Under the pieces are notes generated by a model, which was not told where the DNA came from, did no database searches, and saw only the letters and a list, made by a program, of their open reading frames with translations. Shown here one piece after another: positions 3,180-26,630 of a DNA stretch of 36,879 nt. The first letter of the stretch is position 1; each line of letters begins with the position of its first letter. Source of the stretch: a virus; IMG/VR virus record IMGVR_UViG_3300038696_000379, positions 1 through 36,879 of that record; one strand, written 5' to 3'. The position numbers and the translations under genes are program-made.

Positions 3180-3697
3180 AGCTCGTATTTTTCAACGTTA
3201 GCAAAACGGCTGGCATCAAATTGGCCCAAAGGGTGGTTCCACTTAAAGTTGAGTAGGCAACCGGCAAAGCCGGTGTAAGTATCGGGCACCAGTTCAATAT
3301 CAAAACTGTTAAGGTCAATGCCAGGCAACACAAAACTCTTATTGGCCAAAGCGTAGCTTTTACGGTCGTTCAGCATTTTTAAAATAATATCTCGGGCAAT
3401 AGCAAAGCACTTTTCTTCTAAAGCCAACCGGGCGGCAAAGTCACCTTTGTCGTTTAGGCGGTCTAGTATCAGCACGCTTCCGCGGATAGATAAGCGCATA
3501 TTACTCTCAATTTGCGCCTCGGTATTTATCAGTGGATCCATGGCCGCTAGCAAGGGCCAACCTACCCGGCCTTTAAAGGCATTATCTAACTCATTAATAT
3601 TTACCCTAAAAAATTTGGGCGTGCCCAGGGCATGGCCAATCTCTACGTGTTGCGTGGCCAGCTCCTCTAAGTAGGCAAAGTATTTTTCTATGTTCAT
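3176..3697 (-). CDS. Hypothetical tail-region protein, 173 aa
   Basis: Alpha/beta protein of 173 residues without a recognisable domain. It begins MNIEKYFAYLEELATQHVEI, has a central helical part (RLALEEKCFAIARDIILKML) and a beta-rich end (NSFDIELVPDTYTGFAGCLL) reminiscent of tail completion or neck proteins, but I cannot place it in a family. ATG overlaps the previous stop by four bases. The location between the promoter-headed 299-residue protein and the tape measure suggests a tail assembly role. Confidence 0.75.
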   Translation of the reverse strand: MNIEKYFAYLEELATQHVEIGHALGTPKFFRVNINELDNAFKGRVGWPLLAAMDPLINTEAQIESNMRLSIRGSVLILDRLNDKGDFAARLALEEKCFAIARDIILKMLNDRKSYALANKSFVLPGIDLNSFDIELVPDTYTGFAGCLLNFKWNHPLGQFDASRFANVEKYEL

Positions 3698-4590
3698 CGT
3701 TTAGCGGCTTTTTTGCGGGCCGCCTCGCGGGCCTTACGTTTTACATCTTTAAGCTCTAAAAAAATAAGGCCAATACTCTGCTTAGCTACTTGGTCATGCT
3801 CTAAAAAATTAGTGCTTAAGCTTCTAAAAATGGTAATCCACCCTAAAGCGTTGGCCTTGCCTTCATTTTTACTAGAAAAAATATCGGGGTGGGCCTTTTG
3901 TATTTGCACGTATAATTGGCCAAACCACCAGGCAATTAGTTTTTTTACGGGCGGGTCTACCCTTTGCCACCGCGCGGCACTTACCTCTAGGGCAAAGCGC
4001 ACAAAAGGCACGCGGGCATCACCTTTAAACTCAGCCGCGTTAGGGTTGTGTAAATCGCTATTTCCGCAGGGGCGGTACAGCACCGCGCACAAAGTATTTA
4101 AATGCTCTTCGGCAGGGTTACCCTCGGTCAAAGCCTCTGTATATTTATGGTAAGCCATCCACGCAAAGTGAAACTCCTCCCCGCTAAAGTTGCTCAAATC
4201 TGGCGCAGGGCCTACGCAGCGCAATCCCTTAACCAGCACTTCATTTATTGGTAATGCTTTACGTTTGGGCTGCTCCAATAAAAAATTGGTGCACTCCAAC
4301 ACATCGGCAACTTCATCACTGTATAAGCTGTAGAAGGCGCGTTTTAGCGGTATTTGCCACCATTTAAGGTTTAGTAAAATCAATAAGGCTTTTAGCCGGT
4401 ACTCTTGCAATAGCGCATCAGCGGCAATTTTACTTAGCTGATTGCTGGCTTTAAAATGAAAATAAGCCTTGCGCCAACCCGGTAACAGCGGGGTAAGCTT
4501 TAGCAGCTGCTTGGTAGATAGTTGGTCCCAACTATCAGCAAATTTTAAAGTAAAATTTTTACGCCTAAAAGGTATTTGCAGCACATTCAT
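3694..4590 (-). CDS. First gene of the tail unit; helical protein of unknown function, 299 aa
   Basis: The frame extends upstream to a TTG at 4614, but I choose the ATG at 4590. It lies at exactly the same distance from the GTCCTTT promoter motif as three other late genes, and its N-terminus (MNVLQIPFRRKNFTLKFADS) looks natural. The 299-residue product is mainly helical, rich in Leu, Trp and Lys, and ends in a very basic tail (KRKAREAARKKAAKR). No family recognised. In long-tailed phages this slot, upstream of the tape measure, often holds tail assembly chaperones; no slippery frameshift site linking it to the next gene was evident. Head of the tail transcription unit. Confidence 0.75.
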   Translation of the reverse strand: MNVLQIPFRRKNFTLKFADSWDQLSTKQLLKLTPLLPGWRKAYFHFKASNQLSKIAADALLQEYRLKALLILLNLKWWQIPLKRAFYSLYSDEVADVLECTNFLLEQPKRKALPINEVLVKGLRCVGPAPDLSNFSGEEFHFAWMAYHKYTEALTEGNPAEEHLNTLCAVLYRPCGNSDLHNPNAAEFKGDARVPFVRFALEVSAARWQRVDPPVKKLIAWWFGQLYVQIQKAHPDIFSSKNEGKANALGWITIFRSLSTNFLEHDQVAKQSIGLIFLELKDVKRKAREAARKKAAKR

Positions 4591-4595
4591 AGGGC

Positions 4596-4630
4596 CAATA
4601 TGGGCCAAGCCCAAACTCTAAAAAAGGACA
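4596..4630 (-). promoter_or_regulatory. Putative late promoter a (GTCCTTT ... CATATTG)
   Basis: On the minus strand TGTCCTTTTTT is followed by CATATTG whose final G is six bases before the ATG at 4590. Numbering the G of GTCC as 1, CATATTG occupies 28-34 and the A of ATG is 40. This geometry is shared with the module before 11363. If CTTT (4-7) is the upstream box and 27-34 the downstream box, the 19-bp spacer equals that of standard Bacteroidetes promoters. Transcription would start at or within a few bases of the start codon. Confidence 0.6.
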
Positions 4631-4636
4631 ATAAAA

Positions 4637-4662
4637 AGCCCCTCAATTGAGGGGCTCTATTT
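4637..4662 (-). terminator. Rho-independent terminator upstream of the tail unit
   Basis: Perfect 20-base palindrome AGCCCCTCAATTGAGGGGCT (4637-4656). On the minus strand it is followed by TTTTTATTG, a good terminator for leftward transcripts coming from the accessory region. Its T-tract runs directly into late promoter a, so termination and re-initiation are back to back. On the plus strand it is followed by CTATTTATTT, a weaker tail. Confidence 0.8.
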
Positions 4663-11363: not shown

Positions 11364-11368
11364 GCCAG

Positions 11369-11403
11369 CAATATGCTAAGGCAAAACCCAGTAAAAAAGG
11401 ACA
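11369..11403 (-). promoter_or_regulatory. Putative late promoter b (GTCCTTT ... CATATTG)
   Basis: TGTCCTTTTTTA followed by CATATTG, box positions and distance to the ATG at 11363 identical base for base in spacing to promoter a. The intervening sequence is different, so the match is not a simple duplication. Divergent from the plus-strand gene at 11440. Confidence 0.6.
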
Positions 11404-11648: not shown

Positions 11649-11843
11649 TTACTGTGAGGGGTTGCCGCCTCCTTTTATGCCACTTCTGCGCATTTCGTTG
11701 CGGTTTTGCCGCTGGTAGTGGTAAAAATCCGTTTCGTTAAAAATTCGGCCGTAGCCATATTGGCGCAGCTCACACTTTACGCGGTCTTTCATTGTACCGG
11801 ATTTAGTCCAGCTATTTTTATGAAGTATTCTTAAATTTGTCAT
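11649..11843 (-). CDS. Small basic hypothetical protein, 64 aa
   Basis: MTNLRILHKNSWTKSGTMKD and onward, basic and aromatic-rich (RQYGYGRIFNETDFYHYQRQ), ending GGGNPSQ. It overlaps nothing, lies 66 bases downstream of the 114-residue gene and converges with the plus-strand regulator. No family recognised. May be a moron-type accessory gene co-transcribed with 11910-12254. A GCCCCACCGGTTGCAGCCAG hairpin-like palindrome with TGGGGC (11874-11901) lies between the two and could attenuate transcription. Confidence 0.5.
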   Translation of the reverse strand: MTNLRILHKNSWTKSGTMKDRVKCELRQYGYGRIFNETDFYHYQRQNRNEMRRSGIKGGGNPSQ

Positions 11844-12560: not shown

Positions 12561-14225
12561 TTATACAGAAGGTATGAAATCGCCAGTGTCCTCTAGCATA
12601 GGACTAAACTTAGCGAAGAGGAGAGTGTCCCCTGCATCAGAGAGGTGGGTTGCTTCTTCAGGTTTTACATTAGCATCTCGCTCAGGTGCTTTGTCTTTTT
12701 TAAATCCACCGTTTGATTGTTTCAGACCAGCCGAGAGTGCACTGATCTCCCATTGCGCGCAATTGGTTCTAGAGTAACGGAACCGAGGTAGTCGGTCATC
12801 TTCTTCACGCAGCATTAAGTTTATAAACTCATACTTAACTTCATGAGGTGGTGCTTTGCCTATATAAACAGTATTGACTACCCAGCCATTCTTCTTAAAC
12901 GCATCTACTACACGTTGAAAGTAGTTGAACTCTGTTACTCCTGAACCTGGTATTGCCGTATGGTCATAGTAATAGTTTACCACGTGCGTGGGGTAATGGC
13001 GGTAGTACTGGCAAAACATATCAATAGCTGCATCTACTAATTGAGGGTGCAAAACAAAAAGGCTATTTAAGAATCGGTATTCATTCTTTACTTCTTGACC
13101 AACTATAACACAGTTGATCTTATCACCGTAGTCCATAGCTATATCTAATGGCCTACTGCCAATGTAGCCGGCATCATGGCGGCAATCTTGCTTTAAAAGA
13201 TTGCGGTTTTGCATATCACCTATAAAGCCATCTAAATACGGGTTATTGAACCAGTCGGCCGCATGGCGGTCTGGGTCAAGGTTACCATAAAAGCCTTCCT
13301 CAATTTTAAGCAACTTCTCATTCATTATAGAGGTACGGTACTTGATGCTACTCAATATTCTGCGCATATCAGAAAGGTATTCAGGGCCAAGCACATCAAT
13401 ATTATCTAATGCACTAGCCTCGCTATAGAATAAAGAGTACCGGTACTCATCACCCACTTTTCTAGGCATGCGAAGGCGGTGAAGTTCTTTCTGAAAAGCT
13501 TTTATTTTGGTGTTAATACGTGCCTTTTGGTCTTGACTGGCTTGCAGCATTTCACGCTGCCACAAATTCACCTGCAGTTGAAATTGAATAATTAACTCAA
13601 TTTGTTCTTCATCCATCTGCTCAGCCATGTCCAATATCCATTTAGCTTGCGGAGTAGTGGGCATATCGGTGGTATAGCATTCTCCTCTGTAGTTGTGTAG
13701 GTGACCAAACTCAGAACGATTGCCGCGTAATGCGGGTATCGTTTCATCATCTAATCTCTCTTTGTTTAAGAGCTTAGCTTCATCACCCCCCAGGGTAACT
13801 AATGAAAGGCCATTGGAGCTACCGGCTCTATCTTGACTAATGAGCACCTGCACCGCCCCATTGAACCAGTAGATAGCATACTTGCTATCCAGGGGCTTTA
13901 CATAAGGGCCTTGCCAGTTCCACATGCGCTTCCATTTCTCGGTTGGCTCACGGCCAAAAACAAAATGTTGACCATCTATATAGCCCATTCTATTCCACAT
14001 TTGAAAAATGGGCGGTAAGGTGCGCACTAGCAGCTGTTGGAAGGTGCGGCCAATTATGCCGTGCTGCCCCCTAGGCATATCTTGTGCATTTTTTAAATAC
14101 CAGGGCGCAAGTATACCGGTTGTTTTTCCGGTGCCACGCCCCCAGATATGGTAGCTCTTAGTGGCTTGCACTAAATGCTGCGTTAACTGCGGTACGTTAA
14201 AATGGAGGGGCCTTGGTTTACTCAT
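12561..14225 (-). CDS. Terminase large subunit
   Basis: The motor and nuclease that packages phage DNA into the procapsid. The 554-residue product has Walker A GRGTGKTT at residues 29-36, close to the N-terminus as usual in this group, and Walker B in LVTLGGDEAKLL (about 142-153). The nuclease half has an acidic strand DIAMDYGDKINCVIVG (about 358-373) and later YYDHTAIPGSG and HLSDAGDTLLFAKF segments with conserved Asp residues, as in RNase H-fold terminase nucleases. ATG overlaps the end of the small-subunit gene by eight bases. Complete. Confidence 0.9.
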   Translation of the reverse strand: MSKPRPLHFNVPQLTQHLVQATKSYHIWGRGTGKTTGILAPWYLKNAQDMPRGQHGIIGRTFQQLLVRTLPPIFQMWNRMGYIDGQHFVFGREPTEKWKRMWNWQGPYVKPLDSKYAIYWFNGAVQVLISQDRAGSSNGLSLVTLGGDEAKLLNKERLDDETIPALRGNRSEFGHLHNYRGECYTTDMPTTPQAKWILDMAEQMDEEQIELIIQFQLQVNLWQREMLQASQDQKARINTKIKAFQKELHRLRMPRKVGDEYRYSLFYSEASALDNIDVLGPEYLSDMRRILSSIKYRTSIMNEKLLKIEEGFYGNLDPDRHAADWFNNPYLDGFIGDMQNRNLLKQDCRHDAGYIGSRPLDIAMDYGDKINCVIVGQEVKNEYRFLNSLFVLHPQLVDAAIDMFCQYYRHYPTHVVNYYYDHTAIPGSGVTEFNYFQRVVDAFKKNGWVVNTVYIGKAPPHEVKYEFINLMLREEDDRLPRFRYSRTNCAQWEISALSAGLKQSNGGFKKDKAPERDANVKPEEATHLSDAGDTLLFAKFSPMLEDTGDFIPSV

Positions 14226-15548: not shown

Positions 15549-15553
15549 GCAGC

Positions 15554-15588
15554 TAATTAATAAAGTTGCAATTGCAATTTAAAGGACT
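15554..15588 (-). promoter_or_regulatory. Putative late promoter c (GTCCTTT ... ATTAATTA)
   Basis: TAGTCCTTTAAATTGC: the motif overlaps the TAG stop of the preceding gene. The downstream box is the weakest of the five (ATTAATTA at positions 27-34), but the distance from GTCC to the ATG at 15548 is exactly that of promoters a, b and e. Confidence 0.5.
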
Positions 15589-18367: not shown

Positions 18368-19441
18368 TTAGTCTTTCAGGCCTAAATCAGCGCGTATAGC
18401 CGCTAATTCAGCATCAGTTTCACTTAAAAAAGTTTCGTTTTCACCACCATCATCTTTGGTAGTGTCTTTTTTCTTGGCGGTAGGCTTAGCCGCGCTCTCT
18501 TTGCCTAAGGCTTTTACTTGAGCTTCTAGCTCAGTAATACGCTGATCCTTCGCTTCAATGCTATCGGCCTTAGCCTTCATAGCATCGTAATCTGCCAGGC
18601 GTGCATCTAAATTGCTTAGCTGCTCCTCGCTAGGTTGGTGCTCTACTTGCTCTGCCGCATCGGTAATTTGCAAGCCAAAAAAGGCCACTAGGGCCGTTAA
18701 GTTCTTTTTAATTTTCATGGGTTCTTCTTTTTTTGCCGCTTTAGGCGTAGTCTTATTAGATTGATTATTAGGAGTAACGCCTTGCAGGGCACTGGTAAAC
18801 GTATTTTTAAGCTGCGCTAAAAAATTGCGCTCGGCTTTAGGCTCTTTTTTAAAGTAAGCCATTACCTCTTCTAGGCTCTTGCCTTGTAAGGCGTCAGCGG
18901 CTTCGGTGCTTTCTTCAATTACACTATCAATAATACCCAGCTCTTTAGCTTCCGCGGCCGTGTAAGTATGGTCATCGTAATTAAAAACGTCCGCTTCTAT
19001 TTCAGCGGTGGTTTTACCCGTTTTTTTAGCAATGCTTTTAACCAGGCCGGCATCAATCTTCTCCATTAACTCTATCCTAGAGCGAAAATCGCGCACGTTG
19101 CCAAAAGCACCGCCACTGCAGTTATGCAATAAAGTAGTAGTATTTTCATGAGCGGTTACTTCATGGCCGGCCATTAGAATAATAGCGGCCATACTGTAGG
19201 CCACCCCATCATTACGGGTATACACCTTTTTTTCGCCAGCATTGGCGCGTAAAATAGCGTTGTAAATAGCAATGCCCTCGGCAATACTGCCGCCTGGGCT
19301 ATTAATGGCTACCATCACACTATCGCAATCATCATTATTCAAATAATCTTGCAGCTGCTGCTGAAAAGCGCTAGCCGTTACGCCATCGCTCCACCAGCTG
19401 GCTCCAATCTGATCGTAAATAAGAATTATTTGTTGTGACAT
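18368..19441 (-). CDS. ClpP-type prohead protease fused to scaffold
   Basis: Residues 1-195 are a ClpP/S49-like prohead protease: NSPGGSIAEGIAIYNAI (48-64), catalytic Ser83 in GVAYSMAAIILMAGHE, His106 in LLHNCSGGAFGN and an Asp at 156-157 in YDDHTYTAAEAKELGIID. Residues 196-357 are scaffold-like: low complexity, Lys/Glu-rich, with a coiled coil (IEAKDQRITELEAQVKALGK). An internal ATG at codon 242 (18718), preceded by the purine-rich AAAGAAGAACCC, could start a separate 116-residue scaffold, as Nu3 does inside the lambda C gene. That internal product would begin with another hydrophobic, signal-like stretch (MKIKKNLTALVAFFGLQITD). Heads the capsid unit behind late promoter d. Confidence 0.88.
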   Translation of the reverse strand: MSQQIILIYDQIGASWWSDGVTASAFQQQLQDYLNNDDCDSVMVAINSPGGSIAEGIAIYNAILRANAGEKKVYTRNDGVAYSMAAIILMAGHEVTAHENTTTLLHNCSGGAFGNVRDFRSRIELMEKIDAGLVKSIAKKTGKTTAEIEADVFNYDDHTYTAAEAKELGIIDSVIEESTEAADALQGKSLEEVMAYFKKEPKAERNFLAQLKNTFTSALQGVTPNNQSNKTTPKAAKKEEPMKIKKNLTALVAFFGLQITDAAEQVEHQPSEEQLSNLDARLADYDAMKAKADSIEAKDQRITELEAQVKALGKESAAKPTAKKKDTTKDDGGENETFLSETDAELAAIRADLGLKD

Positions 19442-19444
19442 ATG

Positions 19445-19471
19445 CTTGCGGGGTTTTTATATTCCCGCAAG
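19445..19471 (-). promoter_or_regulatory. 5' leader hairpin of the protease/capsid mRNA
   Basis: CTTGCGGG, a ten-base AT loop, then CCCCGCAAG: an 8-bp perfect stem ending three bases before the ATG at 19441. Its 27 bases account exactly for the extra distance between promoter d and its start codon compared with the other late promoters. The mRNA 5' end would fall in or just before the stem, so it may stabilise the mRNA or control translation. Confidence 0.65.
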
Positions 19472-19472
19472 A

Positions 19473-19508
19473 CAATAATCTAAAGGTAATTACCCCCAAT
19501 AAAGGACT
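19473..19508 (-). promoter_or_regulatory. Putative late promoter d (GTCCTTT ... GATTATTG)
   Basis: TTAGTCCTTTATTG overlaps the TAG stop of the upstream gene; GATTATTG follows at positions 28-35 counted from the G of GTCC. The start codon is 27 bases farther than in promoters a, b, c and e, the length of the leader hairpin. Confidence 0.55.
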
Positions 19509-20163: not shown

Positions 20164-20667
20164 TTAAATCACGCGCTGCATCAGCATTTCACCGCTTTTT
20201 CTATACCTATAATAAGCCTTCTTCAAACGTTCATACGTCATTTCAGCTTCAGCCGAGCTATATTTTAGAATAAAATCATCAATTTCACTTTTCATTTTAC
20301 CACCTTTTCGCATGGCTTCACCGCGTTCATAAATCACATCTAGGCGTGTATACAACTCTTTGCGCATCAAGTAATCAATCAACTCATTAAAGCGCCTGGC
20401 GTTGCAATCGCTAATGGTTAAAAAAGTAGCCCGGCCATCGTAGCTTTTACCCAGCTCATCGCGCAGCGGTACGCAAAAGCTTATATAATTATCATCTACC
20501 GGGGGCTTTGGTTTTTTGGGCGTGCTATCAATTAAGCCCATTAAAAAAGCGCCAAACGCGCTGTTCGCGTCAAAAACCAATTTTTCATTGGCGCGTTGTA
20601 ATTCCTTGCGCACGTAAAGCATTAAGTGCGGTAACACCGGAATACAGATTTCAGCTTTTCTTTTCAT
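20164..20667 (-). CDS. Hypothetical protein, 167 aa
   Basis: A basic, mostly helical protein starting MKRKAEICIPVLPHLMLYVR, with a proline-lysine linker (TPKKPKPP) and a C-terminal helical part (YERLKKAYYRYRKSGEMLMQ) that resembles a small DNA-binding domain found in Bacteroidetes mobile elements. I cannot name a family. It lies between the holin and the 209-residue virion-like gene; could be a regulator carried in the lysis block. Confidence 0.65.
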   Translation of the reverse strand: MKRKAEICIPVLPHLMLYVRKELQRANEKLVFDANSAFGAFLMGLIDSTPKKPKPPVDDNYISFCVPLRDELGKSYDGRATFLTISDCNARRFNELIDYLMRKELYTRLDVIYERGEAMRKGGKMKSEIDDFILKYSSAEAEMTYERLKKAYYRYRKSGEMLMQRVI

Positions 20668-26590: not shown

Positions 26591-26594
26591 GCTG

Positions 26595-26630
26595 CAAAAA
26601 TGGCAGGTCAAAAGCAACCATAAAAGGACA
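26595..26630 (-). promoter_or_regulatory. Putative late promoter e (GTCCTTT ... CATTTTTG)
   Basis: TGTCCTTTTATGG followed by CATTTTTG (positions 28-35 from the G of GTCC). The A of ATG 26590 is again at position 40. The downstream box has the TTTTG of the standard Bacteroidetes -7 element. Confidence 0.6.

Follow-up and report, generated by a model that had tools for sequence, protein, structure and literature searches.

A phage-specific late promoter predicted to start many late mRNAs at the AUG in phages of Bacteroidota

Where do the late mRNAs of a Bacteroidota-type phage begin, and do they carry leaders? The question is raised by the window, the whole 36.9-kb stretch of a phage record analysed here, whose late genes lie on the minus strand and whose terminase relatives belong mostly to phages of Flavobacterium, Cellulophaga, Polaribacter, Porphyromonas and Bacteroides. 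The minus strand carries five copies of a late module, composed of [T/A]GTCCTTT, 20 bases and a -7-like box at offsets 29–36. The modules start at 26630, 19508, 15588, 11403 and 4630, and each fronts the gene that heads a unit (Table 1). When the window was scanned with a profile of the five modules, their own sites scored 28–38 and the next-best minus-strand site scored 11; the best plus-strand score, 23.7 at 18700, came from a site that is not upstream of any late gene. The distance from module to start codon is exactly 40 nt in four of the five units, at 4590, 11363, 15548 and 26590, and the codon is ATG in all four. If offsets were simply uniform, the chance of four of the five modules sharing one would be about 2e-5. 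The fifth module lies 67 nt before the ATG at 19441, which opens the capsid protease gene. A sequence-only reading of this DNA had proposed that the downstream box ends five to six bases before the start codon at 4590, 11363 and 26590, leaving the late mRNAs leaderless or nearly so. The fixed spacing is real and holds for four units rather than three, 15548 being the addition, and the gap between box and ATG is 4–5 nt.

Table 1 Features of the window; portal and adaptor names are taken from the annotation of Leef_1
Feature	Position	Strand	Details
Late promoter	4591–4630	-	TGTCCTTT 4623–4630, spacer, box CATATTGG 4595–4602, -1 base T; 40 nt to ATG 4590
Predicted leaderless late gene, 298 aa, cluster 4	3694–4590	-	Present in 22/23 genomes
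Intrinsic terminator (stem and T run)	4631–4657	-	Abuts module, closes upstream unit; region fold -20 kcal/mol
Late promoter	11364–11403	-	TGTCCTTT 11396–11403, box CATATTGC 11368–11375, -1 base C
Predicted leaderless late gene, 95 aa	11076–11363	-	Heads portal (11079–9736) and adaptor (9739–8732) unit
Late promoter	15549–15588	-	AGTCCTTT 15581–15588, degenerate box TTAATTAG 15553–15560, -1 base C; overlooked in the sequence-only reading
Predicted leaderless late gene, 210 aa	14916–15548	-	Heads terminase unit
Late promoter with leader	19442–19508	-	AGTCCTTT 19501–19508, box GATTATTG 19473–19480, predicted +1 near 19468
Head maturation protease gene, leadered	18368–19441	-	Heads capsid unit
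Candidate late activator, 167 aa	20164–20667	-	20/23 genomes, variable map position, C-terminal helix pair
Late promoter	26591–26630	-	TGTCCTTT 26623–26630, box CATTTTTG 26595–26602, -1 base C
Predicted leaderless late gene, 189 aa	26021–26590	-	Weak match to virion structural protein family phrog_18179, E 1e-5

Relatives of the window were retrieved from viral contigs by a terminase search; searches of the viral contigs with single proteins (major capsid, protease, portal and tail) returned no relatives, and a first profile alignment was too diverse for a genome scan. Related phages show this layout too, and so do prophages of Sphingobacterium, Pedobacter and Mucilaginibacter. Across 91 related loci (1.4 Mb), TGTCCTTT was found near the terminase gene 153 times on the late strand against 22 times on the opposite strand, and 53 long-frame starts lay exactly 40 nt from it. 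Permuted 8-mers (n = 60) gave a maximum of five starts at any one offset, TTGTCCTT, which overlaps the motif, having been left out of this control. The result was replicated in 80 independent prophage loci, with sites chiefly from Sphingobacteriales and Chitinophagaceae, where 18 of 33 starts fell at 39–41 nt compared with a control mean of 0.48. The exact 40-nt offset is present at 54 of 142 non-redundant sites. A collection-wide pattern scan, which is weakly informative, returned an ATG at 40 nt in at least 119 stretches, against 43 in which it lies at 46 nt. Conservation of the spacer averages 0.14 bits, compared with 0.6–1.7 bits at the box positions, indicating that the spacing is held by selection and not by sequence descent. 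The window also differs from its relatives in gene content. They contain almost no homologs of the segment 27035–36877, one of whose products is a 1180-aa protein that matches an ATPase family, and the window lacks cluster 9 and the tape-measure family (cluster 16), both present in most relatives.

The boxes of the four 40-nt units are degenerate (CATATTGG, CATATTGC, TTAATTAG and CATTTTTG), and a clear consensus emerges only from the relatives: A at offset 30, hardly any G at 31–32, T at 33–35 and G at 36. If the A of the ATG (offset 41) is taken as +1, these positions become -11, -10/-9, -8 to -6 and -5, an exact match to the Bacteroidota sigma-A -7 element TAHHTTTG, which is present in the group as A30 H H T T T G36. 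In F. johnsoniae this element reads T-12 A-11 H H T-8 T-7 T-6 G-5 and is followed by 4–5 nt to the start (PMC6847099), and in F. psychrophilum the box lies at -12 to -5 (PMC9723704). The expectation that Bacteroidetes promoter geometry places the predicted start on the A of the ATG was thus borne out, with the box A and G at -11 and -5. The base at -12 is mostly C or G, not T, in the leaderless class, and the TTTG of the sigma-A -33 element is absent, TGTCCTTT occupying -40 to -33. Within the window, TTTG is in register in only one of the four boxes, that of the 26630 module, and the 15588 module has TTAATTAG in its place, which counts against the leaderless reading.

These features lead us to a model in which TGTCCTTT stands in for the host -33 element, an activator encoded by the phage probably binds it, the host sigma-A -7 element is supplied by the AHHTTTG box at -11 to -5, and RNA polymerase would start at a purine 4 (3–5) nt past the box. 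The sequences themselves show the module with its fixed spacing, the conserved box, the -1 pyrimidine, the two leader classes and the near-restriction to prophages, whereas the precise start site, the activator and translation without a leader are inferences from them. At most unit heads, including the four 40-nt units of the window, this purine would be the A of the ATG, so that the mRNA would open with AUG and depend on leaderless translation. In some units, the capsid/protease unit among them, the same promoter would be combined with a leader of at least 9 nt, either A-rich or led by a hairpin. We consider it highly probable that a phage-specific and probably activator-dependent late promoter directs transcription of many late mRNAs from the A of the AUG; the leaderless prediction, itself well supported, extends to 15548.

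The offsets of the 142 sites are bimodal, with 67 at 39–43 nt, one at 44–48 nt and 74 at 49 nt or more; leaderless-type sites make up 47% of the module sites. Predicted leader lengths of 4–8 nt are almost empty, and L. cremoris likewise lacks leaders of 4–14 nt. The distance between module and box is identical in the leadered promoters, and its constancy in both classes indicates that module and box together form the promoter and that the distance to the ATG is set separately. The bases preceding the start codon differ between the classes. A pyrimidine stands at -1 in 61 of 65 leaderless-type sites versus 39 of 74 leadered sites (P = 4e-8), and a C in 39 of 65 versus 6 of 74 (P = 3e-11); this excess is expected for a start site with a pyrimidine at -1 and A at +1. 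Upstream translation signals are missing in the leaderless class and kept in the leadered class, as seen both for A at -6, a host translation signal (6/65 versus 32/74 sites), and for A content from -5 to -20 (21% versus 42%). For A at -3 the two classes show no difference.

Class membership follows the gene. The 15548, 4590 and 11363 families are leaderless-type in 34 of 38 cases, whereas among the 17 protease/capsid heads with a module 5 are leaderless-type and 12 leadered (Fisher P = 2e-5, a value that is indicative because the genomes are related). All eight orthologs of gene 4590 that have a module carry it at 40–42 nt, all 12 of gene 15548 at 39–40 nt, and the majority of those of gene 11363 at exactly 40 nt. 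The prediction that late mRNAs are leaderless is accordingly supported by geometry for four window units and fails for the protease/capsid operon, which is leadered here and in most relatives. That leaders are most frequent at the capsid operon argues against a general boosting of late expression by leaderlessness, and the bias in translation during host shut-down suggested in the sequence-only reading is speculative. The predicted leader of gene 19441, about 26 nt long, contains a hairpin at approximately 19448–19468 on the minus strand (-9.0 kcal/mol), situated at the predicted 5' end. In Microcystis phage Mea-Yong924-1 (MZ447863; L013), the leader of another late unit, at about 11768–11795, likewise opens with a hairpin at its predicted 5' end. 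These 5'-terminal hairpins are possibly 5' stabilisers.

The assignment of start codons bears directly on the offsets. For starts at 39–43 nt we took the first ATG in a long frame, a choice with which orthologs and GenBank annotation mostly agree. The start codons of leaderless-type genes are common to orthologs, several were placed at the 40-nt offset by independent GenBank annotations, and in G004 the homolog of gene 26590 has its ATG closely preceded by an in-frame stop. One Mea-Yong924-1 gene, at 13807, starts with GTG at 41 nt. Leef_1, a phage of Polaribacter sp. AHE13PA, includes genes at the 40-nt offset, such as those at positions 2515 and 34630 of its record. Counting against our assignment, one Leef_1 gene has its annotated start 30 nt past the predicted leaderless ATG.

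Transcription could instead begin slightly to either side of the AUG, giving a very short leader of 1–5 nt or a start just inside the gene, with a downstream start codon used where the AUG is cut. Start choice is flexible by 1–2 bases, F. johnsoniae uses spacings of both 4 and 5 nt, and module offsets of 39, 41 and 42 nt exist; with the 5-nt spacing, +1 would fall on the U of AUG, which counts against a start at the A. Nevertheless, the modal offset is exactly 40 nt and pairs a pyrimidine at -1 with A at +1, the usual initiator, and the offsets of 44–48 nt are almost empty. We regard this alternative as unlikely.

A second alternative is that the module is the promoter of a host alternative sigma factor borrowed by the phage, in which case the mRNAs may still be leaderless. 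The TAnnTTGY sigma motif of F. psychrophilum resembles two of the window boxes. However, the box itself is of the ordinary sigma-A type, and 21 of the 24 matches to the promoter pattern in five host genomes (3.6–6.8 Mb) lie in a prophage region, including six of six in Sphingobacterium alkalisoli and six of six in Sphingobacterium sp. CFCC 11742, each set within about 22 kb. The spread across host genes expected of a host alternative sigma regulon was not seen in these five genomes. Given this distribution we rejected a host sigma factor, to which we assign a chance slightly smaller still than that of a displaced start.

The near-confinement of the pattern to prophages makes a phage-encoded activator likely. 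The late promoter proposed here has parallels in the activator-dependent middle and late promoters governed by C and Mor of phage Mu and by MotA of T4, in which the host -10/-7 box is kept and a phage-specific site substitutes for the -35/-33 element. It differs from them in that its output is often leaderless, as predicted, and no homolog of C, Mor or MotA was identified. The best candidate for the late activator is the family encoded at 20164–20667, a guess more apt to fail than to hold. It has no match among PHROGs or NCBIfam families, and its model gave no confident match among solved structures. In Mea-Yong924-1 the corresponding gene is near that for the primase, on the upstream side of the first late promoter. 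We set aside a LuxR-type regulator encoded by 11 of the 23 genomes, the window, which may be incomplete, having no copy. Although a cyanobacterium is recorded as the host of Mea-Yong924-1, the phage has terminase relatives and five late promoters of Bacteroidota type, and on this sequence evidence the host assignment looks doubtful. Prophages of Muribaculaceae and Runella lack TGTCCTTT and have TGTCTTTT or TTCCTTTT similarly placed before a -7 box and ATG (L180:15024, L190:15605, L194:17047, L159:3491 and 4016), which suggests that these sites are lineage variants of the late promoter.

Transcription terminators are interwoven with the promoter. A perfect terminator stem (arms of at least 7) whose T run is the -7 box is present in nine spacers, compared with 0.05 expected by shuffling. 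At two of these sites (L030 16170 and L038 9169) the terminator directly precedes an ATG at 40 nt, so that the upstream message would end a few bases from the next predicted start. One short stretch is thereby predicted both to end the upstream unit and to start the next. Further spacer terminators in which the T run is the -7 box were found at L071:20088, L081:13977 and 19422, L085:11456 and L014:33220. Several spacers of the 15548 family (window 15560–15588; L013:17903, L053:7829, L055:7815) contain the palindromes GCAATTGC and GGAAATTTCC, and at some AGTCCTTT sites, e.g. L072:5170, a long palindrome spans the -7 box; these palindromes are possible operators. The module might alternatively act in the RNA and not as the promoter, transcription starting farther upstream and the longer leader offering the ribosome or a protein a binding site 40 nt ahead of the AUG. 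This proposal would fit a translational constraint on the ATG distance and the CU-rich composition of the element, but is very improbable and was rejected on account of the leadered class, in which the identical module-box unit occurs with the ATG 49–109 nt away, and of terminators that end at the module (window 4631–4657) or within the spacer; the box is moreover a sigma-A -7 element in register, and the 12 bases upstream of the module hold no other conserved element.

Compared with the promoters of Bacteroidota sigma-A (sigma-ABfr; TTTG at -33, TAnnTTTG at -7), the phage late promoter shares the -7 element, the avoidance of G at -10/-9 and the placement relative to the start site, and differs in having TGTCCTTT for the loose -33 element, a weak T at -12 and near-exclusive occurrence in prophages. 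A literature search on the motif string returned only unrelated papers, and one on late promoter motifs of Bacteroidetes phages found none. The sequence-only reading had stressed that there is no room for a ribosome binding site, which says little, since Bacteroidota make no use of Shine-Dalgarno sequences; most of their genes reportedly use neither Shine-Dalgarno-led nor leaderless initiation (PMC3160421). Its view that a leaderless late programme would be unusual in a phage was overstated, because leaderless phage mRNAs are already known, among them lambda cI transcribed from PRM and predicted SigA-dependent ones in Cluster O mycobacteriophages such as Corndog (PMC4351075). In these, too, the predicted +1 is the first base of the start codon, and Corndog includes one such promoter of a structural operon. 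They are, however, single promoters or belong to hosts rich in leaderless genes, whereas here a conserved, gene-specific pattern runs through many phages. What is unusual is the setting, for the arrangement is rare in the Bacteroidota hosts themselves, where 3.7% of 5' UTRs are shorter than 10 nt (PMC7366714) and 5.5% of mRNAs are leaderless (PMC9723704), compared with the 47% of module sites that are of leaderless type here.

Tentatively, and with chances that we put a little short of even, we propose that a single phage-specific late promoter serves a large group of Bacteroidota phages in two output forms: packaging, portal and tail units would yield leaderless messages and the capsid unit a leadered one, and the promoter-to-ATG distance would thereby set the translation route and the protein ratios under a single activator. 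The late promoter points to a family of late activators, and its motif can be used to annotate late genes and start codons in unannotated Bacteroidota phages. The predicted leaderless late mRNAs would also provide a handle on how Bacteroidota ribosomes treat a 5'-terminal AUG, with natural leaderless and leadered versions of one promoter supplied by the phages.
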